Below, in pieces: positions 1 through 64,000 of a stretch of 64,000 nt of DNA (the stretch's first letter is position 1; the number at the start of each line of letters is the position of its first letter). Position numbers and translations under genes: made by a program. The notes beneath the pieces were generated by a model, which worked only from the letters and a program-made list of their open reading frames with translations, searched no databases and was not told the origin of the DNA. Source of the DNA: Termitomyces sp. T153 (taxonomy: Eukaryota > Basidiomycota > Agaricomycetes > Agaricales > Lyophyllaceae); the NCBI GenBank assembly GCA_018296165.2, contig JACKQL020000019.1, forward strand, positions 558,001 through 622,000, written 5' to 3'.

Positions 1-2
1 GA

Positions 3-191
3 CCAAACCATAATACTAGTCGTTTCCAGCAGTACTGGAATGACTATTCAACTCTCTCTCAGCTGGGGACGTATGGCGGGTACCACGAGCCGTCCCCAGT
101 TGCACATCAACAGCAGCAGCCACAACAGCAAGGATACTCTGCTTCCTCACAAATGTACCTAACCGAACCCTATAATATGTATAGTGAGTAA
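3..191 (+). CDS. C-terminal end of a Gln/Tyr/Ser-rich protein (5' partial)
   Basis: Reading frame 3 stays open from the window edge to a TAA at 189-191 and encodes about 62 residues rich in Gln, Tyr, Ser and Pro. It includes a run of alternating Gln and Pro (QQQQPQQQQ) and ends in NMYSE. Low-complexity Gln tails of this kind are common at the ends of fungal transcription factors and RNA-binding proteins, but no domain is visible and no function can be assigned. The other two frames are closed early or read as noise. The rest of the gene lies outside the window. Confidence 0.55.
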   Translation, partial: PNHNTSRFQQYWNDYSTLSQLGTYGGYHEPSPVAHQQQQPQQQGYSASSQMYLTEPYNMYSE

Positions 192-3100: not shown

Positions 3101-3549
3101 CCTAGTCTACCCTCAAAGGCGACAAAGGGCTTGCTGAACACTAATCACAACGTTTTAGGCGTATGCCTGGAGTTATCGGTTGAATCGGACTCAAAGACCT
3201 CAGAAGGCATCGGATAGCTATAGGTGTTAGACGGACAATATGTGTACCTGGTAATAATTTTGTAGATTCCTACATAGGCTGTTGCTTCCCAAGGCCAAGT
3301 CTCTGAATTTCAATCAGAATTTCATTAGCTATAAGTAGCGTCAGTACAAGACCAACTCGGGACGACGTCGGAGATACGCGTGATCTGATGTGTTTAACAG
3401 CATGTCCGGCCCGTGAGGATTCAAGTTGAGATTTGCCACGCGTACGGTTGTTAGCCAGATCCACTACATATTGACTTGCTCAGCGCTCAATACCGTTATG
3501 GATTCTCGGTACCTATTGAGACATATCTTGGTTTGTTATTTTCATTACT
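192..3549. other. Stretch without an assignable gene
   Basis: I see no convincing gene here. CpG content is normal and all open frames are short. The only exon-like signal lies at 898-1205 on the plus strand and is listed separately. The rest looks like intergenic sequence or very old decayed sequence. Confidence 0.4.
898..1205 (+). CDS. Possible exon pair of an unidentified gene (weak)
   Basis: A plus-strand frame reads through SSLDRLRKAKLATRQ to a GTAAGT donor at 1091. It resumes in phase at 1124 after an AG and runs (QKSWRNPSPRPDC...) to a second GTAAGT donor at 1206. Two consensus donors in phase with an open frame argue for exons. Against this, the implied first intron is only 33 bp and I could not find a start, an end or a family. 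Treat it as a hint only. Confidence 0.2.
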
Positions 3550-4161
3550 GTGAAACGAAAGTGCGAATGGATCTACCGAGTCCTCGATCACAATATGAGA
3601 CACCAACTTGATTTGGATCGTTGCAATGCTGTACCGATTTCCCCGCCTTCGGACATGATGACGCTCGTCTACTGGGTTCTGTCACTCTCCCTCTTGCTTC
3701 GCGGCTCCTATACTCCGTCCCCAGGTGCCCTACTCCCACTGCGGACGACACTGTCTCAATTCTGTATCCAGGTCTCGTTCAGACCTTCCTTTATTACTTG
3801 GCTCTTCTACCCAACTGGAACTCCAACCTACATCCTCCCGCCAACGCCTACCGCTTCTTTGGAATTGCATGTGACAAAAGTACCACTCTCCTTCACAATT
3901 GCCGCTCTCTTCGCTGTCATCTGCCTTACATTCGGCACTGTCTTCATCCGCCTATTCCAGATTCAAAAAATCCAAATTATGGGCTCATCCAGAAGCGTAG
4001 ACACATCATCTTTGACCCAAATTATGTCTTCGTCCTCCACCCATTTGTCATCTCGCTTACGCTCCCGCCAGTGTTACTTGACCAACGTCAGCGCACTCAG
4101 AACGCGGCTGCGCCTGTTAGTGTCCAAGGTCAAATTTCATTCAATCTCAGCAGTCGTCTAA
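3550..4161 (+). CDS. Hydrophobic ORF holding copy A of an unidentified repeated protein motif
   Basis: This 203-residue open frame has no recognised family. Its middle (3790-3950) reads TGTPTYILPPTPTASLEL and then KVPLSFT, followed by a hydrophobic segment (LFAVICLTFGTVF) that could cross a membrane. Relatives of the same stretch occur at 26,270-26,440 and 28,765-28,935 in the CpG-depleted block. The second frame over 3621-4169 is also open, so the true frame is not certain. I favour the first because amino-acid identity with the other copies is clearly higher in it. No reliable initiator ATG or splice pattern was found. It could be a decayed mobile-element gene or an exon of a lineage-specific membrane protein. 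Confidence 0.3.
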   Translation: MKRKCEWIYRVLDHNMRHQLDLDRCNAVPISPPSDMMTLVYWVLSLSLLLRGSYTPSPGALLPLRTTLSQFCIQVSFRPSFITWLFYPTGTPTYILPPTPTASLELHVTKVPLSFTIAALFAVICLTFGTVFIRLFQIQKIQIMGSSRSVDTSSLTQIMSSSSTHLSSRLRSRQCYLTNVSALRTRLRLLVSKVKFHSISAVV

Positions 4162-4247
4162 AATGCTGAAACTGCCTCTTCCTTTGCATCCAGATACTTC
4201 CAAGTCTTGAAGCAGCAACTACTGTCGTCATTTGCTGGGCTCAAGCG

Positions 4248-5304
4248 TTGAGGCTGACCACTTGTTATCCTGTCTTCCGTCTTCTTTCTTTGGTATACAT
4301 ATGCCCTGTCCCGCTATGTTTCCGAAGTTCAAGGCGAATGTCAATTGCGGACCTCGTGCTCAATTTTCATGATTTCGTCTCCTGTCTATTTAGCTTAGCT
4401 CGGAGCCGCCTTGTTCCTTTCATTCCTGCATTTTTGGCGGCTCTCTGCATAGTTTCTACCGAGGATTCCGTCGGCTATATGATATCTATCTTCCATCGAG
4501 ACTGCTCTTCGATCCTTCTTTCTGCGACAGCTTCTGCATGGCAGACATATCTTGCGATTCTATGTAACAGCGACGCCTGCATACATTACCTGGCGCGCTG
4601 TTTTACCATACCCGCCGTCATTTCCTTTGTCTACAGCGTATCCCCACTTGGTAGAGCCCTGATAGTCCCCTTCGCGCCATTCCCATCTCTCTTGACTTTT
4701 GTATTGCTTCATTCTGGCTTCGCGGCAGTGACTCTCCATTCCTATGATATCGCTATGCTACGACATCAGCAGATTGTCACTCGACGCCTCTTTGTCTACA
4801 CAGACGGAGCATTTGATAGGGGAATGTGTCGGCGCACCAGAGGAATAAAGGCATCCGATAATGTGCTTTGTCTCTTCATTTTTGGAACCATGTTCGTTTC
4901 TGGACTGATTTTGAGGGAAGAATTACTGTCTGTTATCATTGGCACGGCCGTAAGAGAACTCGCTTTCAGGTACTTCGAATTTATGACTCATTCTTCCATC
5001 TAGGTCCTCTGGACCATCAGAAGAATCTGCTGGGTACGTACTTCTGACGTTCGAAGCACACTTCTCCGCCTCATGCAACGTCTAGTGTTATTTGCCTAGC
5101 TTTAAACGGCGACTCGAAGTTCACGAAAGACTCGCTGAAGTAGTGATCAACCCTTTCCTGTTTATCATTGGCAACGTACGCGAGGAGGGAAATTTGGAAC
5201 CTGCCTTGGACGATATCACCCGTGACAGACCTTTATTTCCTCTTATGTACAAAATCGTTGACTTAGTGGACACGAGTCCGTGGCTACCAGAGGGTATTGG
5301 TTAG
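4248..5304 (+). CDS. Possible multi-exon gene of unknown function
   Basis: The first part (4248-4969) is a long open frame with many hydrophobic residues and C/T-rich third positions. A phase-consistent model continues through an intron at 4970-5003, a 30-nt exon at 5004-5033 (SSGPSEESAG) and an intron at 5034-5099 that starts GTACGT. It then enters an exon from 5100 reading FKRRLEVHERLAEVVINPF, acidic and well behaved up to the stop at 5304. The first intron would be only 34 bp. No domain is recognised and the 5' end is not defined. It may be joined to the hydrophobic ORF just upstream or to the ORF starting at 5518. Confidence 0.28.
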
Positions 5305-5517
5305 TGGTGACTAGTACTTCGACCAGTACCTAATGCTTGTAATGCGATTATTTGCGCATATATTCTGGTAGTTTTGACAATTGAGAGAATTCAAAATGCT
5401 CAACTTGCTGTGCCGCTGAACGTGCTTCCTCGCGTTTCGACATCATCTAATTCTCAATGTTCAACACTCAACGACGTTTCGTAAATGGGAAAGGAATGAT
5501 AAGCGCAGATCCTGAGT

Positions 5518-6213
5518 GTGCCAATGTCACAACACCGTGATATCTACATCGATTGTGTGGTCAGATATCTCAAGTCAAATCATGGATGGATGCTTTTCAA
5601 AACTCTGGACGGGCGGTCAGACTTGCTGGGTTCCGTAAATCAGCTCGATTCCTACAAAACCAAAGGATCACGACACTATCCCTTTCCACGTTCACAAATC
5701 GTCATCTCCACCCAAACCTCCTTGAATACCAAGGACAACGGTCACGAGATTTTCGCCAACCACTGCCCTCGCCTGCTTGGATTGCTGTGGTTCAGTGCCG
5801 TTATTGAGCAACTGAAGCTGATTGATTGCCTTAGAAGTAGCACAGTCAGTGTGGACCGTTGTTTTTCCCTTCGAATGAATACTGAACACGCTCTTGTAGG
5901 AATCACAAACTTTTGTCCGTTATGCCATAATCATGGTGGCGGAGGCACTGAGCGATCTTTGTGGACTCTAGGCTCTGAGGGCACGTCCGACAAGCGAAGG
6001 AGGACTCACAGACCACTGGTTCCCAGAACTTCTGCCCATGCTTCATTTAGTCTTGACCACGCGATGATCAAGCGACCTGAACTTTTGTCCAACAGCGGAA
6101 GAAACATCCCTGGCATTCAGGAGTTGATATCCTACCTGATCTTCTGGGGGTGGGCGATCACGGGAGTTGGAAGGCAAGCTCGTTCACCTTGGGATCGGAA
6201 CGATCAGCGATAG
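5518..6213 (+). CDS. Unidentified open frame, 231 residues
   Basis: This is a long open frame in sequence of normal CpG content. It holds a pair of cysteines and histidines (CPLCHNHGGGG, near residue 140) that superficially resembles a metal-binding knuckle. There is no recognisable family, codon use is not clearly coding, and a second frame is open over 5553-5807. It could be a 3' exon of the putative gene upstream or chance. It ends about 440 bp from the convergently oriented permease gene. Confidence 0.2.
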   Translation: MPMSQHRDIYIDCVVRYLKSNHGWMLFKTLDGRSDLLGSVNQLDSYKTKGSRHYPFPRSQIVISTQTSLNTKDNGHEIFANHCPRLLGLLWFSAVIEQLKLIDCLRSSTVSVDRCFSLRMNTEHALVGITNFCPLCHNHGGGGTERSLWTLGSEGTSDKRRRTHRPLVPRTSAHASFSLDHAMIKRPELLSNSGRNIPGIQELISYLIFWGWAITGVGRQARSPWDRNDQR

Positions 6214-6653
6214 TTTGACATGAGTCAGTCAGTGACTGTGGTTGGACAGGAGTCGGTCGGTGACTGCACCGATCAGAAGGGCCGACACGACGTAGGGGCG
6301 GAATACCGGTCCAGAGTCGGCACCCTGGCGAGACATCTTTTATTGGTGGCGGGGGTATCGAATCTCTCGTTACTGTGAGCAATGCATTTTTTCTTCTTTC
6401 CTTTGACGTTTGTCCCGCATTGTACGGATATTCCCATTATCTTGTATACCGGCTGGATTGAAAGTTTATATGCGTAAGTTAATCGTGTACCATCGGAAAG
6501 TCTGTATTCGTATTGTCAAATGGGACTATAGGCCCTGTGTTGTTCCTAGCAACCTGAAGTCGAAGACTCGAACAAACGCTACTACTGAGATTAAACCGCG
6601 TACCTCGCTGTGAGTTTGAATGCAATGATCTAGTAGTGTCTATTGGGAAATAC

Positions 6654-9274
6654 TCAGAGGGAGATAATTCGTGTGCCGAAGTCAGCGATAGAGAAGGGGA
6701 AACGAGCACCGGGGCACGACATGAACATCAATGAAGTAGGTATATTAAGGCGGTTTGATAAGGCCATTACGCCGGGCGGGTTGAAAGTGGCATCTACGAT
6801 GATCTTGGAAATGAATGAGACAAATACCTATGGGAACTGCAACGATAGCATACGAGATCGATTAAAAATTCAGGGAAATCTTCCCGCAGAACTAGAATAA
6901 CACAGTGTGAATGCGGCATGCACGGGCGTTCAAGATGACCAACTTTTGGCATGAGCCTCTAAAACAGGGATAATCCCTCTCTCGCAGTCGTTGAAGTGGA
7001 CAATTTTGATACAGGATGTCTCTTCGCTGTTGCGCACATACGAGATCATTTTGACGAGCTGATTGAACTACGGCATCAGGCTCGTCAGTACTAGATAGAT
7101 ACTGGAAGAGTATTGATACTACTTCACTGGTTTTGACCAGGATACAGATTGGCTGGCTTTTCAAGCTTAACATCAAATCGATCAGCTTGACTTTCGCTAT
7201 TTTGATCAGCATCAGAGAGTGTAAGCACGGGTGCTCATCACATAGCCAGTACACCCATCTCAAAAGATGAATTCTGTTTTGAGTAGCTTTGAAGATAGTC
7301 GTGATACTTAAGAAGTACACCAAAAAATACCTGTCCGATTTGTCAATGTTTGAGCTGGATATTCACAGGACGATAATTATGAGCCTTACCCAGCAGTGGC
7401 GGGGTTCAGAGCAATATTCCCGGCAAAGACGAGTATCGAGATGACAATGGATGAAAAGACGATCAGTACATGTGTGTTCGGGGTTCTCGCGATGCGGCCA
7501 CGGTCGAGCTTTAATAAGAGCAAGGCTAACGGGAAAAGTGACATGACTGTCAACCAGACAAGAGAGAACCTGTTCGTGGTCTTACTCGGGACAAATAACG
7601 AGATTCAGAGGAAAGGAAAGCCGTACATCTGGGAAACCATACTCAAACTAGCTCCAGCACTCGCATACAACATACCACAGAAAGCGACGAAGGAGAAAAC
7701 CGAAACGTACGGAGACTCTGTGATGGATAGTTTGAGACAGAAGAATTCTGGAAGAATGCGGTGAAACGCAAGTTGTTGCAAGAGTTCACAGGCACTGAGG
7801 ATACCTTGATTCAGAGAAAGTGATTATAAATATAAATGGTGAAGTTAACAAGAGTATACGGTACCAGTCAAAACGCCACCACAGAGGACTACAGTGGCGT
7901 CAATTACGATCCATATTCGTAACCACCTTCCTGCAGTCTACAACATTTTAGCTATGTAATCAATGGTTTTCTTGCGGCAAAATCAAAAGTTCCTACCGTT
8001 TGTGCAAGTACACTGAGCACGTTGGCACCTCCAAGAACGGTTTCTAGTGGTACATTGGCCAGAACTAGAACCATAATAGTACCATTAAGGGCGATGGCTG
8101 GTAGATGCAGATTTCTAAGGACAAGAGGGTAATGACCCTCCTTGATTCGTCCGATATACGATGGAGTACCTTCAAGAGCCTCAATCCAACGGAAAATTAG
8201 ATAGAAATTGTTCAACGCACATTCAAAACCAGTGAGTCCCAACATGCCGAGGCATATGCCATAGAATACTTGTTGCCAGATGGAACTGGGCGATGAAGGT
8301 GATCTACTGTTCCAATTGTCTCGAAGTTGTTGGGACCCAGTCGTTCCCAAGTGAAGCAAGGATGAAACGACAAGAACCATCATCGATCCCATCTGTAGCA
8401 TGACAAGTTCAAGATTACAGTTGAATAAAATCATGGATAAGAAGACAGACGTGGAATGTTAATATGAACAGAGCTATACGAGCGCTCTCTCTCACACCCA
8501 AAAGACTTATGAGAGTCAAAACAGCCAAAACGAGGACGGCAAAACCAAGCTCTGGAATAGGCAGTTTCACCTCCCCCACAAGATAAGAAGCCGCAGTCGC
8601 AGCAGATATCATCGAAGTAGCAATGTAATCTAGTAGCAGAAGTGTTGCCCCGATGAGGGCAAAAGACTTTGACGACACGTTCAAGCTTTGTATTGTGATG
8701 AGTAGAGAGAAAACTACCTGAGCAATGGAGGGAAGGCTTACATGTAAGTATATGGGGCACCAGACATTGGCAGGGCAGACCCCAATTCCTCCATGATGGG
8801 ACGCCATAAAAATAATACGAACGTCGCGATGATTAGAGATATGGGGGAGCTAGTATAGAATCAGGTGGAAGGAAGCGGCCAGATAAAGACTAACGGACTA
8901 GACAGTGGAAACTGCGACGACAGCAGGAAGAGCGTAAAACACACTGCCAAAGACCGCGTTTCCTGCTAGAGCACTAGCTGTAAACTGCCCCAAAACACTT
9001 TGGCGCCGAATTTCCTGAAGCCGAATTTCCCCAGTTTTATGGTCATCCCCAGAAAGGAACATGCGCGTCGTGTATCTGAGGTCGTTTAGTAGGTGCAGAG
9101 ACTGCAAAGTCAGGGGGTTTAGTGTGCGTCCACTGCCTTCATTGACCTGTGATTGGTGCTTTGGACGGATACTAGACGCTGATTTTGTAGTCACTACAAG
9201 GTGTCACTACACTTGGTCGAAACATACATGCCTCTCTTCGGTAATAAGACAGTGGTCTCGTTCGGGCGCGACAT
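6654..9274 (-). CDS. APC-superfamily amino-acid permease-like transporter, 13 exons, 650 aa
   Basis: Predicted multi-spanning membrane transporter of the amino acid/polyamine/organocation superfamily; the substrate cannot be told. Exons: 9274-9228, 9171-8899, 8849-8742, 8685-8451, 8392-8221, 8169-7997, 7937-7865, 7804-7627, 7569-7390, 7330-7120, 7058-6944, 6891-6854, 6803-6654. The sum is 1953 nt, exactly divisible by three, with GT-AG introns of 49-61 bp. Family landmarks in order: LGQFTASALAGNAVFGSVFYALPAV near residue 80, RPIMEELGSALP, FALIGATLLLLDY, a glycine loop GLTGFECTPSYI, VLCGGVLTGILSACELL, FSLVWLTVMSLFPLALLLLK, then a soluble tail with PICILVKTSEV, YVRNSEETSC and the terminal GTRIISL. 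The ATG at 9274 is the only one that joins in phase to the next exon; an upstream AT-rich TATA-like stretch lies just before it. All exons are open, so the gene looks functional. It sits outside the CpG-depleted block. Confidence 0.9.
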
Positions 9275-10530
9275 TACTTCGAGGTTTATAAAATATAATT
9301 TTCCGGGCGTCTTTGCTGATATGGGTTGAGCTGAATACTGAAACTTCTGAGCGACTTTATCAAGCAACCCATGACACCACTCACAGCTGGATCGGCGGTA
9401 TTCCTATGGCCCGATTTCATCATCCGCTGTCCGGTGCCGCATTCTCACAGGCACTGCCGAACGGTGAAGTAAAGCGATGTCTGAGGTTAATGATAATTAA
9501 AGTACTCACCTGACAAGCTTTCCGGGGACGCCGGAGCCAGGTCCCTGCAGTGGGTCATCATTGATGAGCTGTTTAAACGTTCGAGTACTGGTACAATACA
9601 ATGACAGTCAAGTCCAACTTCGATTCAGCTACGCGCCAAGATGATACGTCAAACACGTCAAACTCAAGGCTTAAGAATAAGTTTATGGCATTCAGCTGAT
9701 GCTGATAATGGTACCATGCAACATGACTGACCATGACATAAGTTCAAAGATGTTACTGAGAATTGGCATAGTCATGATAGTTTTCGTTAGTCATCGAGAA
9801 TCATTGATACTATTCTCGTCATAAAAGGGCCCGGGGAGCTACAATTGAGCGTTACCTTTCACACTCCAATGGAAAGGGAACGGCTATCGGTGAGGCCCCC
9901 TTTTACAAATGCCGCAGCCAGTTGGGCCGAGTTTTCAGACTTATCAGCACAGGAGTTATAAAGATCGAAAAAGAAGGCTGTCATGACAGGGAAGACAGGA
10001 AGAATATTAGGAATCCCATCAGAAGTTGGCGAAGAAGACCGATAGATGGAGATCTAACCCATTCCTAATTCAACCCTCGAAAAAGAAACTTGACAGGTGA
10101 CACGCTGGAACTAGACAAGGCCGCCTTGAGCCGGACACCGACTAGTAGATAGGTTTTCGATGTCTAAAATTCCAAACATGACAGGAGTCGTTTACTGGTC
10201 AGATCTCAGCTTAAAACATCGCCTCCTATTCGCTGTATCGTACTACCTGTTCGCCTTTTGTGAATCTATTTATCACCACTTAGTACTTTGCATCTAGGCA
10301 TGATAACCGCTGATATGACATTGTGTCACCTGGTATCATTATTACACCTTAGACAGGACACTGCGTGCTTCTTTCTGGGTCATTAGGCCCCGTACCTGTG
10401 ATACAGCCGTTTTCATAACGTTAGGCCCCTTTGACTTCCGGTTGTTTAGTTGTTTGGCCTGATATTCGTGGATGCCGGGCTTGCCGGAGAATAGTTACTT
10501 TGGTAACATCTTACCTTCTTCTATTATGAG
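9275..10530. other. Intergenic stretch, no gene seen
   Basis: This is upstream sequence of the permease gene. Open frames are short and show no family resemblance. CpG content is still normal. Confidence 0.4.
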
Positions 10531-10559
10531 GGAGGCATCACAAATCGATCGAAGTGAAG

Positions 10560-10970
10560 AGACTGATTTTACGACTTGCACTTGTCAAGAAGTATAAATA
10601 CAATGTACTCCAGGAAATTCCTGGTGTTAGCATCCGGGCCATCAAACATGTCAAGACAACATATCGTCGAACTGGTGACGTAGCTCTGAAGAGAACAGTT
10701 GATGGATGAACGCAATGGTTTTGAAGTAACTGTAAGTACACTAGATGTCAGTAAAGGCCAATGCAACTAACTTATACAACAGTTTTTGGAGAGTTGTATC
10801 GAGAAACAGCCTGACTTATTCCTATCCGAGCTTCAAGACTTGCTTCGAAACACATGTGGGATTGAGGTGTCTCCAATACATTGGGCTTTGAAGCAGCGTG
10901 GATTCACATTCTCCGGCAAGCCTGGCATCCACGGATATCAGGCCAAACAACTAAACAACCGGTTATGAAA
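10560..10970 (+). pseudogene. Tc1/mariner-like transposase N-terminal fragment
   Basis: Two blocks resemble the paired helix-turn-helix DNA-binding region of basidiomycete Tc1/mariner transposases. The first reads VLQEIPGVSIRAIKHVKTTY then RRTGDV (about 10,590-10,680). A TGA and further stops follow. A well-formed intron (GTAAGT at 10,732 to CAG at 10,782, with a CTAAC branch site) comes next, then FLESCIEKQPDLFLSELQ and an RGFTFSG motif typical of the second helix-turn-helix. The catalytic DDE domain and terminal inverted repeats are not visible, so this is a truncated relic. It lies just left of the point where CpG disappears. Confidence 0.6.
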
Positions 10971-11204
10971 ACGGCTGTAACTACAAATGGCCTTCGGAGG
11001 CAACCTCGTCGGCAGTTGTGCTTCTATTTCCAAAAATAGAACTGGTCGAGATCTCTGCCAGCGACATTGAGCGGTTTTGACCTCACCTCAACTCCACTTT
11101 GACCGTACCTCTAGACCTCAACCCCTACATTACCAATGACAAATTCTTCTCACCCTATCTGAGTAGATACATTGTAGTAGTAAACCTTGACCATGTTCAT
11201 TGAC

Positions 11205-51997: not shown

Positions 51998-52320
51998 TGT
52001 TGGAATTCAAACTGTAAGTACCTAAAACAACACAGACTGAATTAGTCTGATCCTCAGTCTGTTGGTAGAACAACTATTTTTCTGTACCTAAAACAACACA
52101 GACCAAATTAGTCTGATCTATGGTACAGTAAGTGAATTTTCAGAATCAGTGCATATATATAACTCACCCTCAGTCTGTTGGTAGAATGACTGAGGGTTCT
52201 GGTATGTACTGTCTGTATATATATAAGTAATCTATCCCTTTTTGTAATGTAATGATTTAATATGAAAGGTCAGGCACACTTATGGTGCCATGTTGCAGAG
52301 TGGCAATCTGGATCATAAAA
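51998..52320 (-). repeat. 5' LTR of copia element 1
   Basis: 323 bp. It is like the 3' LTR but longer by about 66 bp because of an internal duplication (52,036-52,110) that repeats the ACCTAAAACAACACAGAC block. The outer end is decayed (TAAAA in place of TAACA). Confidence 0.85.
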
Positions 52321-52325
52321 TGGTG
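52321..52325 (+). repeat. Target-site duplication (right) of copia element 1
   Basis: TGGTG, pairing with 46,786-46,790. Confidence 0.85.
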
Positions 52326-52815
52326 GAAATGGTAGTAATGGAGGAAATGGTGGTAATGGCAGTGGCTGAAATAATAATTGGTGGACACTGTACCCATATA
52401 ATGGTGGAGGAAGTGGTGGTAATGGAGGTAATGGAAGTAATGGAGGCAATGGAAGTAATAGAGGAGGATTGAGGAACTTATGGGTTTGGAGTTCATGGAG
52501 CAGGAATGGTGGAAATGGAGAGAATGGAGGAAATGGAGGAAATAGGGGTAAGAGTAGTTGGGGTTGACTGGGAGGCAATGGCAAGAACGGCAGAAATGGT
52601 GGCAATGGAGGCAATGGTGAATGTCATTGGGGTGCTTCCAGAGGCAATGGTGGAAATGGTAGGAATAATGGGAATGGCAAGAACAGTGGAGGAAGTAGGA
52701 GAGGCTCTGGTGTTAATGGTGGGAATGGTGGAAATAGTGGAAATGGAGGCGGTGCAAATACAGCGGTGCAAATGATGGAGATGGTGAGAATAGTGAAAAT
52801 GGAGGTTTCATTTAA

Positions 52816-53493: not shown

Positions 53494-53498
53494 AGCAT
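53494..53498 (+). repeat. Target-site duplication (left) of copia element 2
   Basis: AGCAT, matched at 59,112-59,116. Confidence 0.85.
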
Positions 53499-53798
53499 TG
53501 TTGAGACTCACAAGTCACAACACCACATGCATTAACTGGTTACCAAATGATAAGCAGCAGGATTGTGGATCAGGGGTACAGATGCAAAATGAGAGTATAT
53601 ATACATGAAGGAAAAGGTGATGACTACCCTCAGTCAATATCCAGAAACTGAAGGTGAGCCAATAGTTTATACACATGTAACAAACACATACTTATGCATA
53701 CCATAGAATAATCTCTGTATTATCTAGGTATGCAATATCTAGTTGATATCCAGAGACTGAGGAATAATCTCTGTATTATCTAGTTTGCACTTCTAACA
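53499..53798 (+). repeat. 5' LTR of copia element 2 (no CpG left)
   Basis: 300 bp, TGTTGAGACTC...TTCTAACA. It contains no CpG dinucleotide at all, whereas its partner at 58,812-59,111 has eleven. Confidence 0.92.
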
Positions 53799-53819
53799 GG
53801 TTATGGGTTTGTGCTGTGC
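53799..53819 (+). promoter_or_regulatory. Primer-binding region of copia element 2
   Basis: GGTTATGGGTTTGTGCTGTG directly follows the 5' LTR. Confidence 0.6.
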
Positions 53820-53928
53820 TTTCCTTTAGAAGCATTACTAGTATTTTGTTTGACTTACAGGCCACTGCTGCACTCACTCAATACTGGACTGACTGTCCAA
53901 CACTTTGATACTGCTCTTTGCTGCCTGT

Positions 53929-55140
53929 CATGGCACCAGCAACAATGACCACTCCAGATCCACCCAATACTCCTTCTATTGAACAAATCAGAGCAATGAG
54001 GGCCATTGACAGCTCAGCAAATCCAATGGTCCTCCCCATATGTAGAATCACATCTCCCTGGGTGGGACACATCCTTGACAAGGATGATGGCAAGTACGCC
54101 AAATGGGCATACTCCATGAAGCTCAAACTCTCAATAGTCCAGTTATAGGACTATGTGTTTGACCCAATTCCCCAACTACACACCACCTATGAGCCTAGAG
54201 CCTATCAGGCATGAACCTCGAACTGCCACTTCACATGTTCTTTTCTGAAGTGCATGATTTCTCTGTCTGAGCAAAAACTTTGTGCTGAGGAGGACAACTC
54301 CAAGACCCTGTGGTTATACCTGAAGGACTGCCATGGTGGGGCTGTTCCTGTGAAACAGGTACAGCTCCTTTAGAAAGTGCTTACTATGAAATGTACCCTC
54401 TCTGAACCACTCACCAAGATGATGGACATGATATTCAAGAGATTGATTGCATGTTCAATGCAGGAGAGGTGATGAAGGACCTTCTAAAGTCCATTGCGGT
54501 CCTGTCTGCTCTCTTGGACAAGTCCTTTGTTCACATCAGATCTATCATCTCTCATGATCTGAGACAGGCTTCTGACACTATGAAATATGGCCCAGCTGAG
54601 ATTAGACTCTTTTTAGAAGGGGAACAGACACTCCTGGATGCTGATAGACCTTCTTCCACCCTTGCTGACTCCACATTAGCTGCCTCCTTTGGGAAGCCTT
54701 CTTAAATGAAAGACTTCATGTATGCAGCATGTAAAGCTTGAAAGTGCCCAGCCTATGTGTACACCAGGCACACTGCCCCATGGTGCATCCTAGAGGGTGG
54801 TGGGATGGTGGGGAAGTCTGCCAAGGAATCTAAGACTGTGCACCTGGCCTTCTATGATAGCAAGCAGAAGGAATGGGAGAACAAAGGGAAGATGACCTCA
54901 AAAGTCACTCTCACTCCAGCAGGAGGTAGTGCATTCACACTGTAGGGTGACTCAGCAATTATTGTGGCCTACTTGGCCATGCAGACACAGAAAGGGCTCA
55001 ATGTACAGCTGTCAGAGTTTGCTGGTCTCAGATCTGATTCCCTATCAAGCACAGGGCTCCTAGCCAATGTCAAGGGCTTGGAGTTCAATGCATGGGTTGT
55101 CTTTGAGGAGGAGCCTTACCTCAACAAACACAAGGCTACT
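53929..55140 (+). pseudogene. Copia 2 gag
   Basis: Starts MAPATMTTPDPPNTPSIEQI with VGHILDKDDGKYAKWAYS soon after. It continues in broken frames past APWCILEGGGMVGKS (54,775-54,815). A TAG at about 54,147 and further stops interrupt it. The same blocks occur in copia 1. Confidence 0.75.
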
Positions 55141-55440
55141 GCACTTGAAATTGAGGGTCTGGAGTCAGCCTTGTCATGCAAAGACCAAACCCTGGAACCA
55201 TTCTACTTAGATTCAGGTGCAACAGTTCACATATCACCAAACCCTGACAATTTCCTCAAGATAGACCCAATACCTGCAAAACAGATCTGTGAAGTAGGAG
55301 GATCCTCTATTGCAGCTATAGGAACGGGGACTATTCACACATATGTTGCCGAAGGGGTGTATCTCGACCTCAAAAATGCACTCTATGTGCCAAGATTGAC
55401 AGTCTGCCTCCTATTCATCAGCAGAATAGCATGAGAACAT
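55141..55440 (+). pseudogene. Copia 2 protease
   Basis: FYLDSGATVHISPNPDNFL carries the intact Asp-Ser-Gly-Ala site at about 55,207. IGTGTIHTYV and LYVPRL complete the fold. The frame runs open from 54,964 to 55,434. Confidence 0.78.
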
Positions 55441-55559
55441 GGAGTATCAGCAGTATTTGATGACATGAGAGTCTCTCTGAAGAAGAAGATAAGCAGAAAA
55501 CTCATGGCCACTGGTACTCTCGCACCTAGTTGTGGTCTCTACATCCTCGACACAATGAC

Positions 55560-56500
55560 TGATCGTGCACTTGCTGTACATGCCATGCCAAATATACAGT
55601 CTTGGCACCTTTGACTGGAACACACAAACTATCAGTTGATCCTTCAAATGGCATGTGCAGGCATGATTGAAGGTATGCCCTCCTCTTTCCCCTCCAAACC
55701 TCCTAAGTGTGACCAATGTATCCTTGGAAAGCAGACTAGGACACTGGTACCAAAGGAGCATGAGAAAGGGGAAGGGCATAGAGTGAGGAGGAGATTGGAA
55801 AAGGTCTGGGTGGACCTGACAGGACCAGAAGCTGTTACATCTCACACCAGAAATAACTATGTCATGAATATTGTCAACAATTATACTAATAAACCATGGT
55901 CAATTCCATTGAGATCAAAGGATGACAGTTTTGATGGGCTTAAAGCCTGGATCCTCACATGTGAAAACAAAACTGGACTGCACCTGAAGATATTAAGGAC
56001 AGGTCATGATGGTGAACTTAACAGGGATCATCACAAAGAATAGTACCAACAAAGGGGAATCATTCTAAAAGTCAGGGCACCCTACACCTCTGCATACATG
56101 GGCAGGGTGGAAAAGATGCAATAGATGCTGGGAGGAAAGGCATGTGCAATGAGACTAACAGCAAAATGCCCACCATTCCTATGGGACAAATTTTACCTGA
56201 CAGCTGCCCATCTCCATGGGAAGACAAAAACATTGGCTGTACAGGACATAACACCCAATGAACTGTGGTATGTGAAGAGACCGTCATACTCGTATATTCA
56301 GGAGATAGGCTGCCAGGTGTTTGTACTGGTTCTGAACTGACATAACCTGAAGATATACGAACGCTCAGTAGAATGCATATTAATTGGGTATGATGTTAAC
56401 TTGAAAGCATATTGGTGCTACAATTGGACAGCAAGAAAAGTGTACAGCTCATACCATGTCCAGTTCATAGAAAGTCATAACGATGCCTGACAACCATCAC
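55560..56500 (+). pseudogene. Copia 2 integrase
   Basis: CDQCILGKQTRT (zinc part), KVWVDLTGPEAV with the first catalytic Asp, NIVNNYTNKPW, ILRTGHDGELN with the second Asp, then FYLTAAHLHGKTKT and YSYIQEIGCQVF. A TAG at about 56,041 and one at 56,122 interrupt it. Confidence 0.78.
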
Positions 56501-56999
56501 AGAACAGTGAACCCATGCCACAGACTGAGGATCAAAGCACTGATTTTCCAGATATAACAACAATTGCTGGACGCGCAACAAATGCTCCGATACAGCCAAA
56601 TGATGTAATCAATGACAACGAGTTACCAGGGATCCCAGGCCCAATACTCAATCTGACAGATGACAATCCTCCTCCAAGATAGGAACAAGCAGCAGACAAT
56701 CACTGTGGTGAAGGAGAAGTGATTCACCAACCACAACTGTGGCAGTTGACAAGAACAATTACTCCTACAGAGAAGGTCATCCAAGGGGAGGACCGAGAAA
56801 CCCACACCGAGAGAGCAGTGAGGGAATCCAAGAAAGCAGCAGAACACATCTGACAGAATAGAGCTAACTGAAGACAGACTGTTGATGGACAGCTGGAAGA
56901 CCCAGGGGCTGACAGTACCAGAGAAGAACCAGACTTAGAACAGGTACTGTCAGCCCTGAATGCAACCAACCACTCACAGTTTATTGAACCCAGGGCTGA

Positions 57000-57395
57000 C
57001 CTGGCAATATCTAGCACAAGGGAGGCAAGCACACATTTTAAACAAGAAATGGCGAGTAGGAACAATAGTTGCCTGGGAACATGAGAAATATCAGGTCCAC
57101 CTGTCTCAAATGGTCCTCATTGACAGGATGATCCAACAGTTTGGACAGACCAACGCTGCCCTACTGTCAACGCCAATGGAGCCCAGAACAAAATTGCGAC
57201 ATGTGGACCTGTCAATGTTATCAGATGCTGACTGTGAAAGGATTGCCCAAGGATTATTATGGCTAGCAATTACCACACAACTGGACATCCAATATGCAGT
57301 TCAACAACTATTGCAATACCTCGATTGCTTTACACATACTCACTGGAATGCCACTGTGAGGACCTTATGTTACCTAAAAGGCACAAGGACCATGG
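57000..57395 (+). pseudogene. Copia 2 reverse transcriptase C-terminal remnant
   Basis: Only the end of the domain is left: WEHEKYQVHLSQMVLIDRMI, PMEPRTKLRHVD, GLLWLAITTQLDIQYAVQQL, CYLKGTRTM. The upstream catalytic half is absent: the sequence jumps from LSALNATNHSQFIEP straight into this part, which implies an internal deletion. Confidence 0.72.
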
Positions 57396-58258
57396 TGATA
57401 CACCAGTCTCAACAGTGAGATCGGCAGAGGAAAAAGCCTAGTCAAAGTATATTATAAAAAATATACTTTACAAATAAAAACAGCTGAAAACTGTAAGCTG
57501 GTGAAAAACATTGAAAACTGTAAATGTAAGGCATACCTCAAAGTAAACCTCCCATGTAAAACCAAGGATGAACCCAAAAGTCAGTCGACAACAGCTGGGA
57601 AGCTGGCCATCAAATTTTGATGGCAGGGGCCAAGAATTGATCTCAGCTAACAATCCAAGTTTCCCCTCAATCCAGGGCTAGCCCCTCCCTTCTCTGACCA
57701 ACTTAAACTAAACAGCCCTCAAGTCCACATTGATAAGGATCAGCAGGCAGGAGGAGAAGACAAAGGGGGAGGAAAAGAGACAGACAAAAGAGCAGCCTAG
57801 GCCTCGGCATGATCAAATCCGAATTGCCGATGCCAAAAATAAGTGCATGCCAAGGCCCGACCATGCAGCCCAGCCCACCAACCGGTTGACCACACTCCCG
57901 GATGACGATGAAAACATGTGGAAAAGCCATGGTCCATGCGCAGACTGAGGGGTATAAAAGGAGAGGATTTTTGAGCCTATTGGACAAGCAAAGTACTAGC
58001 TACAGCTCGGAAATCCCCAGGGAGCGGGTTTCTTAGGCCAATAAACTATTATTTTCTTCAGGCTTAAAATTTATTATATTTTGCTTGAGCCTTGTGATCA
58101 GACTTGACCCGGTTGAGTTTGTAATCTAAATCAATTAAAAATCTACTTTGTACGACACTTTTAGAGTGAGCTACGTGAAACAAAGTCCCGAACACCTTTG
58201 TGAGTCGGAGTTTTGAGCTGAGTTTGAAAACTAAGCCAATTTCGCCGATTTCGCATCA
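57396..58258 (+). mobile_element. Solo LTR nested in copia element 2
   Basis: 863 bp with ends TGATACACC...GCATCA (TGAT/ATCA inverted) and a 4-bp duplication ATGG (57,392-57,395 and 58,259-58,262). Removing it with one ATGG restores the copia frame GTRTMGISLGGRHP. Inside are a TATA box (TATAAAAG near 57,954) and an AATAAA near 58,040, as in an LTR promoter/terminator. No internal coding region is present, so it is a solo LTR of an element not otherwise seen here. Confidence 0.82.
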
Positions 58259-58262
58259 ATGG

Positions 58263-58783
58263 GCATATCACTAGGGGGTAGACACCCAATACAGTTAATT
58301 GGATTCACCGACTCAGACTGGGCTAACTGTCTGGATACGAGGAGGAGCGTCGGGGGATATGCGTGGACGCTAGGGTCCGGAGTGATTTCTTGGTCGACAC
58401 GCAAACAGCGAACGGTGGCGGCTTCATCGTGCGAAGCCGAATATATGGCGGCCTTCGAGACAGCCCAAGAGTGCATATAGTTGCGATCATTGCTGGAAGC
58501 ACTCGGGCACACGCAGAAAGACGCGACGACAATACTTTGTGACAATAATTCCGCTATCAACCTCTCAGAAGATCCCTTACTGCATCAACGGGTGAAACAT
58601 GTCGATATCAAGTATCACTTCCTGCGAGAACGTGTGGCATCGAAAGAGATAACTCTTCGCTACATCAATACAAAGGACAATGTCGCGGATATATTCACGA
58701 AGGCCCTCGCAACCCCACAGTTCACTAGACTACGAGGCATCCTAGGGATGACACAAAATTCCGCGCGAGGAGGAGTTGACTAG
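58263..58783 (+). CDS. Copia 2 RNase H domain (nearly open)
   Basis: Reads IGFTDSDWANCLDTRRSVGG, then AASSCEAEYMAAFETAQECI, a single TAG near 58,478, then ILCDNNSAINLSEDPLLHQR and HVDIKYHFLRE to the end. Catalytic Asp, Glu and Asp positions (TDSDW, CEAEY, CDNNS) are intact. Only one stop interrupts the domain, in strong contrast to the rest of the element. The sequence is CpG-rich. Confidence 0.82.
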
Positions 58784-58799
58784 AATGGATAATGCTCGC

Positions 58800-58811
58800 G
58801 GTGAGGAGGAG
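58800..58811 (+). promoter_or_regulatory. Polypurine tract of copia element 2
   Basis: GGTGAGGAGGAG directly before the 3' LTR, the same motif as in copia 1. Confidence 0.8.
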
Positions 58812-59111
58812 TGTTGAGACTCACAAGTCACGACACCGCACGCATTAACTGGTTACCGGATGATAGGCGGCAGGATCATGGATCAGGGGTACAGACGCGA
58901 AATGAGAGTATATATACATGAAGGAAAAGGCAACGACTACCCTCAGTCTCTGGATATCGACTGAGGGTGAGCCAATAGTTTATACACACGTAACGAACAC
59001 ATACTTATGCATACCATAGAATAATCTCTGTATTATCTAGGTATGCAATATCTAGTTTATATCCAGAGACTGAGGAATAATCTCTGTATTATCTAGTTCA
59101 CACTTCTAACA
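58812..59111 (+). repeat. 3' LTR of copia element 2 (CpG retained)
   Basis: 300 bp, colinear with 53,499-53,798. Differences are mostly CpG sites, where this copy has CG and the left copy TG or CA. At three places this copy has CA where the left has TG, consistent with a shared ancestral CG lost on opposite strands. Confidence 0.92.
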
Positions 59112-59116
59112 AGCAT
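59112..59116 (+). repeat. Target-site duplication (right) of copia element 2
   Basis: AGCAT, pairing with 53,494-53,498. Confidence 0.85.
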
Positions 59117-59548
59117 TAGCAGATTCGAGTTTTTCTGGAACTCCGTCAGGAAACATCATAACTGCCTTAACCAGTCCAGAAGAAAGTACCAGAATGTCAG
59201 AACTATATCCACCAGTAAAACATACAAAGGATTCGACAGAGCCTGATTGCTCCCTAGCACATGATAGTAATAAAATCACTTAGTGGAAACGATGATATTG
59301 GAGAGATCACAAAGATAGTGATTCTGGAGAATATTGTCCGAGATAGTGTTTCCTTGGAAGATGGAGAATGATCACAAAAATAATGGCGAGAGGTAATTCA
59401 GCTAGAGGTTGATTACTATAATGATCAAGGAAATAGTTCTAGAGGTAGGTTCCTATTTCTCAGAAGTGTATTTCTACGTATATACAGGAAAGGAGCTCTG
59501 GACAAAGGAAAAACTTGACCTTTATAGGGCAAAAATTTGTTAAAGAAC

Positions 59549-59779
59549 TTATGGTATCACATGCTCCTTATCCCATTTTTTCAATTCAGAAGTGCTCGTC
59601 GACGGCCTTGACGGCAGCGGCCAAATCGTCGTATTCAGGCGAAGACTATCAGTTGATTCCAATCGTATGGACTCGAACATTTCTTGAGATCGTCGCCCAA
59701 TGAGTCTCCTGGCGATGAGGTATAGGAGATTTCGCGAGACAATCAGTCTGTTGACTGCGTACTGCAGCCTACGACTCAC
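59549..59779 (-). CDS. Possible C-terminal exons of a small unidentified protein
   Basis: On the minus strand two protein-like stretches are seen: SPGDSLGDDLKKCSSPYDWN (about 59,720-59,655) and PEYDDLAAAVKAVDEHF followed by a stop (about 59,637-59,586). They could be joined by a short intron. No start or family is found, and the space to RRP9 is only about 400 bp. It could be a small gene or a remnant truncated by old rearrangement. Low certainty. Confidence 0.22.
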   Translation of the reverse strand: MSRRLQYAVNRLIVSRNLLYLIARRLIGRRSQEMFESIRLESTDSLRLNTTIWPLPSRPSTSTSELKKWDKEHVIP

Positions 59780-59988
59780 GACTCACGAAGATCAAAATTC
59801 GAGCTACCACTGATGGCATCGACGGAAGATGCTTCCAAAAACGGATTCAACGAAATGATGAACCTGCCAGTGGCCAGGCATCAAATGTCAAAGTACAGAT
59901 ACACCGGCGTGTCAACATGTCAAACGATTTTCATGTAGTCCAGAAATGCTGAACACTAAGGATTTCACAGTAGTTCATACCTCCTGAA

Positions 59989-62017
59989 TCATGGTAATGT
60001 CCGTGGTGAGAAGGCAACTACGATGGTTCCGTTGACAACACCCTCCTTCAGATTCAACCATCTACCAAAACGGTGTTCCTGACCCATACCCGCAATAAGA
60101 AGTATCGGCTGGGTACCGCCTTTCCTGATCAAGGCACTGGAATCTTGTTCATTGCTTTCAGTAGCAGAGGGATTTATCCACGTGGACCGCTTGAAAAACT
60201 CCGGTGGAGGTGACAGAAGTTGAAGGGAGTTTACGACACCAGGAGCAGGTATGGTTCCGACGAGAGAAAACGACTTGAGCTTCGGGTCGAGTTTCCATAT
60301 TCGAACATCGCCCTCCCAGGAACCTGATTCTGCGTTAAAGTGATAATGCGACGAAGGGATAAAAGACCTTACCAGAGGCTATCACATCGGAATACCGCAA
60401 ACTCGCAACAGACGTTATCCACCTTGGTGTACGTATCAAACCCTCAGTCTCACTGTGCACCTCATTGAATCCGTGAGCAAGAGCCTGTGTAAACACAGGT
60501 TTTTTCTTCAGCGTCGACCACAAACAGAGAGAGCTAGCATCAAGATTAGGAAACACTCAAATGGAAAGAACATTGGACGTACCCACTGTCTCCGCCGCTC
60601 ACAAAAGTGGTCTCATCGATCATAGCCACGCACTCAATGCTTCCTTCGATAAACTTCTTCACTGTCTCTGCAGCCCGTGCACCCTCTATCCCTTCATCAG
60701 GATCGTCACCCTCATCGTCTCCACGTAAACCACCATCCATGACCTCCCGTATACGACTACGGCCTCCACCACGAAACACGAGTTGAGTCTCTTCAACAAT
60801 CTTCCAATACCGAACCGTCTTGTCGCGTCCTCCCACACTCACACATGTTTCTCCACGTAAGGCATCAACAGAAAGTATGTGGTCCTGGTGACCAAACAGA
60901 GTCTCCACATAGCCCATCACCGAGGGCGAAAGATCGTATACTTTCAGTGTTCGGTCGAACGAGCCGGTATATAGTTGGTGTGTTCCTTTCCGAAATGATA
61001 ATGCCTGGAGTCAGGATTAGAGTCGAGTATAGAGAATGAGAGATGAGTGGCGTACAGAAATGGTGTCTTTGTGTCCGAGATTGCCTCCGAAGGCTTTTAT
61101 CCATTCTCCTTTCTCCACGTCCCAAACAACAAGCTTCCTGTCCTTCCCAGCACTAGCCAGATATTGCCCGTCGCCGCTCACAGCTAACGCGAGCACTTCA
61201 TCAGTATGACCTTTGATACTCAGGTCGACCTGAGCTTTGCCCTTGCCCTTTTCCTTCGAATTTGGCGGGCGTACTTTATGGAAGGTCATCAGGCGCTTTC
61301 CCGTCGCCAAATCCCATTGAATAATAGCGCCTTCCTTCCCGGAAGTGAAAAGGTGCTTCCCAGACTCGGAAGCGACGGCTGAGGTTACAGAAAATCGGTG
61401 TCCGCGCGTTCGTAGAACTTTGGTCGGTACCTGCGTAAAATTCAACTGGAAAATAATGTAAACGACGTCTCAAAGTGATATAATAGAGCTCACAGAATCA
61501 GCAACGAAAAGGTGGACTTTTCCAGAGTGTTCTAGCACGTCTTGCTTCAGTCGCGCAGATATGAGCTCCTTGTCGATTTCAGCGGCGTCAAACTCGCCGT
61601 CAGCTGGTAATAGAGGACAACTTAGCCACGAACTGACGTTATATAGAGCTGGTAGGACATACCTAGGCTCTCTTTAACACTCTCAAGGTATAACTTGGCC
61701 AACCGTAATCGTTTCTCAGCAGGGGTCTCCTCATCGTCCTCTTCTCCGCTAGCACCAAGATCTTCCTCCTCTGCCCTCAAATCCATGTCATCAATACCAC
61801 CCTCTCCTTCATCTGTGTGTTCAGAAAGCTCCTCATCTGCAACCCGACGTTTCGTCTTCTGGACATTGTTCACTTTTGATGACCCATGTTTTGCAAGACC
61901 CTGAGGCGGTCCTTTGCGCGACGACTTTATGGCACTTCTTGAAGAACTTCCCTTTGCTCCGGAGTCTGTGCGCTTTCGTTTACGAGGCTTTGAGGACGTG
62001 AAAAAGGCGTCGGGCAT
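59989..62017 (-). CDS. RRP9: RRP9/U3-55K, U3 snoRNP WD40 protein, 6 exons, 590 aa
   Basis: Nucleolar WD-repeat protein of the U3 snoRNP, needed for early pre-rRNA cleavages in 18S rRNA maturation. Exons: 62017-61663, 61603-61494, 61445-61056, 61004-60583, 60533-60373, 60323-59989. They sum to 1773 nt in frame, with GT-AG introns of 48-59 bp. The N-terminus is basic and acidic (PRKRKRTDSG, EEDLGASGEEDDEETPAEKR), then LRLAKLYLESVKESL, the U3-55K signature region. WD repeats follow: VLRTRGHRFSVTSAV, IKGHTDEVLALAVSGDGQYL with ASAGKDRKLVVWD, TGSFDRTLKVYDLS, LFGHQDHILSVDAL, VGGRDKTVRYWKI, an acidic insert, SGGDSGSLCLWS, ASGSWEGDVRIWKL, and a last repeat near GRWLNLKEGVVNG. The ATG at 62,017 is the first in frame. 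The gene is intact and CpG-normal. Confidence 0.95.
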
Positions 62018-62480
62018 GAATGATTTGTTCGCATGCGCTATAGCTATAGAAATTTTTGAAACGCATTGGTGATTATTTGTTTTCCCTTCCGTAGCCAAAT
62101 TATGCACAGCCACGCATTATCCTCAAATTCTTGCCAAACGTGCCGAACGCCACTTACATGTACAGGATGAAGCCTGGAGACAAAAATAGTCTGTACGTCC
62201 ACAGCTACCTGAAACTTTCTTGTTCTGGATAACGATTACCCTTGGGCAAATACATCGAGCGCGTCTTGAGATGCTTCTACTAATTCTCAACTTTTACTCC
62301 TGGTGCCCACTACCTATAGAGATATCCGTGTATAACAACAGATCTATCGCATGTCGAGGTTTGTTGGCTAAGTAGTCTCATAATTTCAGGGTATCGTCGT
62401 CGCGCATGGATATGGATATACGACGATTAAGCAAAGCCATGCTTAATTCATCATCCTTGCGCATCAGTGCTTTGTAAACG
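62018..62480. promoter_or_regulatory. RRP9 upstream region
   Basis: This 463-bp gap between the EMC8/9 stop and the RRP9 start must hold the RRP9 promoter and the EMC8/9 3' end. No motif strong enough to name was seen. Confidence 0.4.
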
Positions 62481-63312
62481 TCAAGTACCATGTATCATTG
62501 CGTCGGGGATGCAAGCTCTGTTTCTCAACCAATCTGAAAAAGTTGTCAGAGCCTGACTCCAAGGTAGCACAGGAGCGACATACCAATGGAGACATCTTCA
62601 AGATGATCATCAAAGTCTCCAAATTTGTGATGTCGGTGTTCATCACGCACGAGAGCGACTGCACGCCTCGGAAGGTCGTCTAACGCAAGTTTAAAAGATG
62701 AGTTTTGTGAAAAGGGAGCCGGGCTTCCGGAAAAAGGCCGCCATGACGATGACGTCGAAAGTGAGGTGTATGGCTAGAGCAGGAGAGCATGAAAATTATT
62801 AAACTCGTAAAATGTTATGGACGAACGATCAAAGCTGCCTCATGCGTTCCCAGCTTGTCCCCATCGATCTCAAATTCAAATGAGCAATCAACAAGATACA
62901 GTGAAAGAATGGACGAACGACAAATGCCACGGCATCGTTGAAGCCTTGCTTGATTTTCCCTGCTATTTTCTCCCCAACTGGTACAAGAGAAGTGTCATCC
63001 AGGCGGTCACTAGCCTGGTAGTAGCCGACCAGCTTCAAGCCCACCGAGTCCGCATATTGGGTTACCTTCGAAGGGTGAGGCGTAATCAGAACAGCACAAG
63101 AAGTGGTGGATGCATGCACACACGAGGTCGAGACCGATCTCCATCATAGGGCTTAGACTTGTCCAATGATGAAGCAGAGGCACAGCGTCCTCAATGATCA
63201 CATCGCCGGCTGATTTCTTACCGAGTAGTACGCCGTTTATCTGCTTATGAGGGTGCTTCGCTGCATGGAAAAAAATTTTGAAGTAAGTTGTTGCCGAGAG
63301 CGTGTAGGACAT
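62481..63312 (-). CDS. EMC8/9: ER membrane protein complex subunit 8/9, 5 exons, 206 aa
   Basis: Subunit of the ER membrane protein complex, which inserts tail-anchored and multipass proteins; a cytosolic MPN-like (UPF0172) fold without catalytic metal site. Exons: 63312-63124, 63065-62919, 62868-62827, 62773-62584, 62533-62481; the sum is 621 nt in frame. Landmarks: MSYTLSATTYFKIFFHAAKH, INGVLLG, AVPLLHHWTSLSPMMEIGLD, LVGYYQASDRLDDTSLVPVG, then after two short introns IDGDKLGTHEAALIPYTS and GDFDDHLEDVSIDWLRNRAC. Length fits the family. Two introns (62,869-62,918 and 62,774-62,826) start with the same ten bases, GTTCGTCCAT. The gene lies 464 bp upstream of RRP9 on the same strand. Confidence 0.93.
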
Positions 63313-64000
63313 GGTGGTTCACGATCAAGTCGCCCAAGAAGTTGACAGATCTTATCTCAATCTTATCAGCTAATTTGTATGTGCCCGAGATAATGTCAAC
63401 ACTGGGCATTTGTTTCCATTGTTGCATCATGAAATACCAAGCTACAAGCTTCAAAGCTTCATTGATCATCAAGTTTATTTCTTCCCTCCAAACTGTGTTT
63501 CTTGCTGTAATGACAGAGCTATGACCGCTCCAGTCAGAATGAACCTGAAGGCAATACACGTTGTTTACTCGGTACTGCCAAGCCACATATACAGCAGTTT
63601 GACTTTGAACGCATGTAAAACTCGTAACGTCTGCTGTGTTGCCTATCACTTTCTCCACCAATTCCGAGCTTACTTAACACGGCATGCTCGCAGTCCCTTG
63701 ACGTTCAACGTCGCAACTAAAGCACTGTGAAAAACGGAATATGCCTTCGATACTTATGCGATAGCCTGATATCTTTGTCGTACATCGCTCGAATCCGCTC
63801 GAACTTTCGGGTTTGATCTCAACAGTCCTGGCATACGACACAGCCACCCCCGCACATCGGCCAAGCATGGATGGACGTTACCGATTCGCTCAGAATATCA
63901 CACGCGATTGCTTTCTGCACAGGTTTGAGGGGTCTTTCCCTTTCGATGCGCCCATCGCACCATATTTTTGTCCCTTTAGTGGTTAGAGACGTTACACCTT
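63313..64000. other. Upstream region of EMC8/9, no gene assigned
   Basis: Several overlapping frames are open (minus 63,661-63,313; plus 63,288-63,730), but none shows a family or splice pattern. It may hold the EMC8/9 promoter and the edge of a neighbouring gene. Confidence 0.35.

Follow-up and report, generated by a model that had tools for sequence, protein, structure and literature searches.

A Ty1/copia-type element of Termitomyces sp. T153 that probably spans the edge of a domain of CpG decay

For the decay of CpG to TpG in transposable elements of Basidiomycota, Masc2/Dnmt1-type methylation with subsequent deamination has been given as the cause (PMC4352252), a CpG-biased hypermutation resembling repeat-induced point mutation (RIP) has been described in Rhizoctonia solani AG8 (PMC4014442, which also mentions leakage of RIP into DNA beside repeats in Ascomycota), and nanopore data from Marasmius oreades give CpG methylation that is high in repeats and low in active elements (PMC9674265); each of these papers is cited here for a portion of its text. 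We describe a 64,000-nucleotide stretch of the Termitomyces sp. T153 genome, called the window below (C19:558001-622000; assembly GCA_018296165.2, 72.4 Mb in 307 contigs), which holds an element of the Ty1/copia type interrupted by a solo long terminal repeat (LTR). We consider it highly probable that the copia element spans the right edge of a domain of CpG-to-TpG/CpA change, 46.7 kb long, for which CpG methylation would be the cause.

Change-point analysis placed the edges of the domain at 11119 (11078–11170) and 57805 (57744–57820), with log-likelihood ratios (LLR) of 639 and 605. The ratio of observed to expected CpG (O/E) is 0.053 over 11120–53498 versus 0.914 at 1–11119 and 0.962 at 59112–64000, and the depleted middle (11120–53498) has a TG/CA excess of 1.47. 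The domain, the copia element, its LTRs, and its target site duplication (TSD) are located as follows.

11120–57805 (no strand): CpG-depleted, TG/CA-enriched domain (change-points and CpG O/E)
53499–59111 (+): Ty1/copia-type element, left part decayed, interrupted by a solo LTR (LTR pair, TSD, Pol_BBD match)
53499–53798 (+): left LTR, 0 CpG (LTR alignment)
58812–59111 (+): right LTR, 11 CpG (LTR alignment)
53494–53498 (+): left copy of the copia TSD, AGCAT (sequence check)
59112–59116 (+): right copy of the copia TSD, AGCAT (sequence check)
53627–53654 (+): hairpin with 8-base arms and a 12-base loop, the loop inverted relative to 58940–58967 (alignment read by eye)

Both copia LTRs are 300 bp long with the ends TGTTGAG...CTAACA, and the 5-bp AGCAT duplication on both sides shows that they belong to a single insertion. 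When the LTRs are aligned directly, ten of the eleven CpGs of the right LTR read TG or CA in the left LTR. The remaining CpG (58958) is inside the 12-base loop, which is inverted between the two copies, and when the loop is read in the inverted register, the left LTR has CA opposite this CpG, with one extra G/A difference. The hairpin arms in the right LTR are CCCTCAGT/ACTGAGGG, and the flipped loop is, as read from this alignment, a hairpin micro-inversion that followed insertion. At three sites (53564, 53618, and 53786), the left LTR has TG and the right CA. Four other single-base differences were found outside the loop: transitions at 53546, 53553, and 53652, the first of which adjoins a lost CpG, and a transversion at 53745.

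There are accordingly 14 CpG-type differences, one of them within the flipped loop, versus 4 others outside it. Outside the loop, all 10 right-LTR CpGs are changed versus 4 other changes (Fisher test, 2e-15), which rules out chance as the source of the CpG contrast; the non-CpG divergence there is 4 of about 260 positions (1.5%). Of at least 14 CpGs, none survives in the left LTR, and the right LTR has lost at least 3. The initial annotation of this DNA had already counted 0 and 11 CpGs, pointed to the three additional TG-left/CA-right sites, and proposed that substitutions be tabulated by context; the alignment bears out the counts and the sites, and the tabulated substitutions are enriched at CpG. 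Its statement that every right-LTR CpG appears as TG or CA on the left holds directly for ten of them and for the eleventh only in the inverted register (CA).

The same edge is recorded by a second insertion, a solo LTR nested in the copia element and therefore younger than it.

57396–58258 (+): nested 863-bp solo LTR TGATAC...GCATCA, which holds the domain edge (copies, ends, TSD)
57392–57395 (+): left copy of the solo-LTR TSD, ATGG (sequence check)
58259–58262 (+): right copy of the solo-LTR TSD, ATGG (sequence check)
57657–57805 (no strand): right domain edge interval, bounded by a lost ancestral CpG at 57656 and a kept one at 57805, with none in between (ancestral CpGs, change-point)
57953–57959 (+): TATA-like motif of the solo LTR (motif only; a promoter function is presumed)

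The insertion consists of one LTR with its own 4-bp duplication and without an internal region. A search of the assembly with 57440–58262 gave 44 match rows, which fall at about 40 distinct places including the query itself. The most similar of the other copies is 98% identical; DNA searches of the assembly, here and below, score the best candidates only. The limits of the LTR were set by comparison with 19 other copies, and the exact 4-bp duplication is present in 17 of the 35 other copies examined. The family is probably Ty3-like; the internal flank of one copy (L021) matched Integrase_H2C2 at 20.2 bits, below the cut-off of 25.5, and two further pieces gave no match.

The solo LTR differs from the commonest base of its family at only 2 of 769 non-CpG positions. 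As ancestral CpGs, we took the 26 sites that are CG in this solo LTR or in at least 3 of the 19 other copies; this LTR retains 2 of the 7 to the left of 57700, on the U3 side, versus 18 of the 19 to the right of 57800 (p = 0.0018). One site that is never CG and four that are CG in only one or two copies were omitted from this count; with these five doubtful sites included, the values are 2/8 and 18/23 (p = 0.012). A separate, later insertion thus records the same edge, and nothing speaks more strongly against the right end of the copia element having had a history of its own. The TATA-like motif, at LTR position 558, lies about 150–300 bases to the right of the edge, and a second TATAAA is found at 57453 in the AT-rich U3. 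With the change-points, the O/E of 0.05, and the nested insertion in agreement, the proposal of the initial annotation that the edge of a CpG-mutating domain runs through the element is upheld. Two of its details are corrected: the whole of 53499–59111 is not copia, and dense CpG begins not after 58.2 kb but at 57805 (support 57744–57820), inside the nested LTR.

The CpG content of the copia body and its coding remains divide it as follows.

53799–55300 (+): body zone A, 3 CpG, O/E 0.036 (CpG count)
55301–57395 (+): body zone B, 22 CpG, O/E 0.21 (CpG count)
58259–58811 (+): 3' part, 40 CpG, O/E 1.12, with an RNase H-like frame interrupted by a single stop at 58478 (CpG count, translation)

Zone A together with the left LTR (53499–55300) has 3 CpGs and an O/E of 0.03, and the step from there to zone B is supported by a binomial test (p = 0.0004) and by a change-point at 55325 (permutation p = 0.010). 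The return of CpG from about 55.3 kb, claimed earlier, is therefore real as a step, but the rise along the body looks like two steps, a weak one at 55.3 kb and a sharp one at 57.8 kb, and not like the smooth gradient that had been described; the further claim of an almost stop-free RNase H part is confirmed. In Pfam, the body matches Pol_BBD (50 bits), the gag_pre-integrs match of 20 bits is below the cut-off of 28.4, and the RNase H and reverse transcriptase (RT) pieces gave no match. The 3' frame is one that we take to be RNase H-like from its motifs, and the RT core has presumably gone at about 57020–57090, between the end of the integrase and the RT thumb, as far as the translation can be read. 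The copia relatives retrieved scarcely cover 55.9–57.4 kb.

The spectrum of changes in copies of the solo LTR bears on the process responsible. CpG losses over 27 copies comprise 239 to TG and 223 to CA and are not coordinated by strand: of 435 adjacent pairs, 201 share a strand, against a permutation mean of 201.6. Outside CpG, distinct C-to-T changes were found at 45 of 95 CpA, 45 of 103 CpC, and 31 of 114 CpT sites, i.e., no CpA-specific preference was seen, CpA being equal to CpC (p = 0.67) and CpT lower (p = 0.004). Likewise outside CpG, C:G-to-T:A changes (121 alleles at 312 sites) exceed A:T-to-G:C changes (71 at 457) 2.5-fold per site, and other cytosines are therefore mildly affected. 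In seven depleted, unsaturated copies (both flanks with an O/E below 0.35 and at least 4 CpGs kept), CpG loss is 97 times the non-CpG per-site divergence (bootstrap 66–138); with the addition of L023 and L024, which do not strictly satisfy this rule, the ratio is 115 (79–168) for nine copies. It is lower in L018 and L035, both of which straddle edges (21 in each), and equals 5 in the right half of L070. All these ratios are approximate, since the clock is the distance to the commonest base. Matches to the C5 cytosine methyltransferase family PF00145 above the cut-off were found on C37, C4 (with one internal stop), and C121, and a single-frame check upheld those on C37 and C121.

The lack of both CpA-specific bias and strand coordination favours the deamination of methylated CpG over classical RIP as the presumed process, so that of the two processes offered by the initial annotation, methylation-driven or RIP-like, the former fits better. 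RIP in Ascomycota combines a CpA context with the sensing of duplicates. The process requires a RID-type methyltransferase, prefers CpA or TpCpG, typically leaves strand-coordinated runs of C-to-T changes, and has a usual length limit above 300 bp. An origin of the contrast in classical RIP, or in another repeat-sensing pre-meiotic C-to-T process that struck one part of the element, appears unlikely to us: the expected bias and strand runs are absent, and each LTR duplicates the other, yet only one was hit, although 300 bp is short of the limit just given. The excess of C:G-to-T:A changes outside CpG would agree with such a process, as would the CpG-biased RIP-like mutation described in Basidiomycota in the portions cited of PMC4352252 and PMC4014442.

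Gene conversion or recombination, in which the right end was replaced from a younger, CpG-intact copy, would yield the CpG-rich and nearly stop-free 3' sequence that is observed, and had been named in the initial annotation as the alternative. We regard it as very improbable. The copia LTRs are 98.5% identical at non-CpG positions outside the loop, the copia TSD is intact, and the step sits inside the later solo LTR and not in copia sequence. Among the best candidates scored, other matches in the assembly have 71–83% identity with parts of the right LTR and no more than 75% with the RNase H part; the proposed genome search for a donor of the right half found no close one among them, an absence that is no proof, and conversion by a younger copy thus gained no support. 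Even less credible is an assembly artefact in the form of a haplotype switch within the element. Redundancy does occur in the assembly, as L077 and L078, on C153 and C29, have identical match values and are either a recent duplication or redundant assembly, but the LTR pair was found at a single locus with no second allele, the copia and solo-LTR duplications are both intact, and the same kind of CpG step appears at independent solo-LTR loci with different TSDs.

Methylation and deamination within a bounded domain being preferred, the history of the locus may be reconstructed as follows. The copia element would have inserted close to the right-hand edge of a domain that already existed, so that its left LTR and body lay inside and lost nearly all CpGs, most likely through methylation and subsequent deamination, while its 3' end and right LTR lay outside and retained most of them. 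The younger solo LTR would then have inserted at 57.4 kb, and its U3 side decayed, while its promoter/R/U5 side did not; this puts the present edge at about 57.66–57.80 kb. The O/E of 0.03 in zone A and of 0.21 in zone B, the latter in line with the 2/7 retention in U3, suggests that the edge moved to the right from about 55.3 kb, and the simplest order would be an early edge near 55.3 kb, insertion of the solo LTR, and an advance of the edge to 57.7 kb. A stationary edge at about 57.4–57.7 kb with a soft shoulder would fit nearly as well.

Several observations weigh against this reconstruction. The movement of the edge depends on the similar retention in zone B and in U3, which carries a wide error, and the U3 of the solo LTR offers only 7 scorable CpG sites. 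The right copia LTR lies outside the domain and has also lost at least 3 CpGs, so that the outside was not wholly spared. The ratio of CpG to non-CpG change differs among copies (38–317 in depleted or straddling ones, and lower in some), and its clock is crude. Finally, CpG change-points with LLR > 25 occur at 22 of 43 copia-related loci, some of them overlapping; such change-points are common in element copies, and the present case is therefore not unique.

The other 35 copies of the solo LTR allow the effect of place to be separated from that of the LTR itself. We scored CpG retention in each LTR half and the O/E of the adjoining 1-kb flank; the two correlate (rho = 0.53, p = 3e-6; 69 halves, one without flank), also among the 17 copies with an exact duplication (rho = 0.48, p = 0.005; 34 halves, one without flank). 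For right-minus-left differences, the correlation is significant in the full set (rho = 0.45, p = 0.008) but not when only copies with an exact duplication are taken (rho = 0.37, p = 0.16). An intrinsic left/right bias of the LTR was rejected, as none was found in the 18 copies flanked on both sides by an O/E below 0.35 (Mantel-Haenszel odds ratio 0.81, z = −0.70; L023, with one flank missing, and L082, with no left sites, were omitted). For the intact solo copies that straddle an edge (n = 5, including this one), the odds ratio is 0.036 (z = −6.0). The absence of bias in copies depleted on both sides, together with the flank correlation, indicates that retention goes mainly with place. Two copies behave differently: L019 (C65:134002-134826) keeps 1/7 left and 14/19 right sites, though both flanks are depleted, and L024 (C205:46562-47386) keeps 5/7 left and 0/19 right, a pattern not following its flanks.

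Whether the solo LTR takes part in setting the edge was considered with the intact copies, defined loosely by a duplication with at most one mismatch and an aligned span above 840; 22 of 36 copies pass, this one included. It is conceivable, though on the doubtful side, that the solo LTR acts as an oriented boundary, its promoter region (from LTR position ~230–420 onward) stopping a CpG-methylating and mutating state from spreading in from the U3 side and shielding what lies downstream. The competing explanation, to which we give slightly better than an even chance, is that first the copia element and later the solo LTR fell by chance on a pre-existing edge fixed by the side of the neighbouring genes; it concerns the boundary role and not the domain edge as such. 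A CpG step with LLR > 40 is present in eight intact solo copies, and the depleted side is U3 in seven (L017, L018, L024, L028, L031, L069, and L070) and U5 in L030 (p = 0.07). Under the flank rule for straddling copies (one flank below 0.35, the other above 0.7), U3 is on the depleted side in all five intact ones (p = 0.06). Neither orientation test is significant and straddling copies are few, which agrees with chance landing, as does the abundance of edges within copia-related loci noted above. The same holds for L018, in which decay has gone further in the left flank (O/E 0.12) than in U3 (5/7 kept), so that the edge there predates that LTR. Of seven non-intact straddlers, L077, L078, and L081 are oriented in the same way and L026, L035, L075, and L080 in the opposite way; some appear to be the terminal repeats of longer elements, which would be depleted inside anyway.

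The positions of the edges speak against chance landing. Five of the eight lie inside the LTR (L017 at 409, L028 at 414, L031 at 423, L070 at 261, and L030 at 550; binomial p = 0.018 for 863 of 3800 bp), those of L024 and L069 lie outside, and that of L018 could be either (−221 to 415). Four fall within LTR positions 226–424 (p = 0.0005, for a 200-bp stretch picked after seeing the data). The same pattern is also seen in another element, at L070 (C223:12250-16080), whose two flanks align with neighbouring parts of the same relatives (C61:124265-124929 and 124959-125786; also C2), showing that the LTR splits one element, which we take from its motifs to be a tyrosine-recombinase retroelement. 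With an O/E of 1.07 on the U5 side and 0.00 on the U3 side, L070 is the closest parallel to the present locus, having a CpG-free and a CpG-normal half in the same orientation. None of the titles listed by a literature search of limited coverage dealt with solo LTRs that act as boundaries of methylation in fungi, and a search of passages in PMC12543289 gave nothing on this point.

Around these elements, the window contains an RRP9 gene and a UPF0172 gene in its right part, the latter presumably EMC8-like, and an amino-acid permease in its left part. A MITE-like element (miniature inverted-repeat transposable element; 10438–10962) that has terminal inverted repeats of 55 bp and numerous relatives in the genome lies on the CpG-normal side of the left domain edge, which is found about 115–210 bases past it. 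Within the depleted domain, 52304–52805 is an imperfect minisatellite with a 9-bp period, rich in GGN/AAT. Beyond the copia element, 59112–59590 has a CpG O/E of 0.42 and a TG/CA value of 1.03, i.e., no excess, and differs in this from the decayed domain.

The CpG decay of elements in Basidiomycota is already known (PMC4352252 and PMC4014442, in the portions cited). What this locus adds is an edge that is sharply mapped and recorded twice, an approximate rate, and a hypothesis on boundaries that can be tested. Pairs of LTRs, and nested solo LTRs that have many relatives, can serve as natural dated reporters of the limits of CpG-decay blocks, giving from sequence alone the position of an edge to about 150 bp, the order of events in time, and a rough rate of CpG loss inside the domain (about 100 times that of non-CpG change). 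If the LTR promoter does set the edge, a mobile element would supply boundary elements to a fungal genome.

Compared with the system of PMC4352252, as represented by the portion cited, the locus has the same CpG signature in element copies, and the genome carries cytosine methyltransferase genes; that work scores copies genome by genome, whereas here the edge is mapped inside single insertions, with LTR pairs and nested LTRs as clocks. With Rhizoctonia solani AG8 it shares the change of CpG to TpG, commoner near repeats, but there, according to the part of PMC4014442 consulted, the changes reach genes as well and are seen as heterozygosity between nuclei, in contrast to the nearly CpG-free domain with sharp edges and CpG-normal flanks described here. 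RIP leakage in Ascomycota is similar in that mutation reaches past a repeat and differs by the sensing of duplicates and by its CpA context, a specific bias that is lacking here. The methylation state reported for Marasmius oreades, in the portion of PMC9674265 cited, is that expected to yield the pattern seen in Termitomyces; the former provides direct methylation data without a mutational record across single elements, and the latter such a record, read from the DNA sequence alone.

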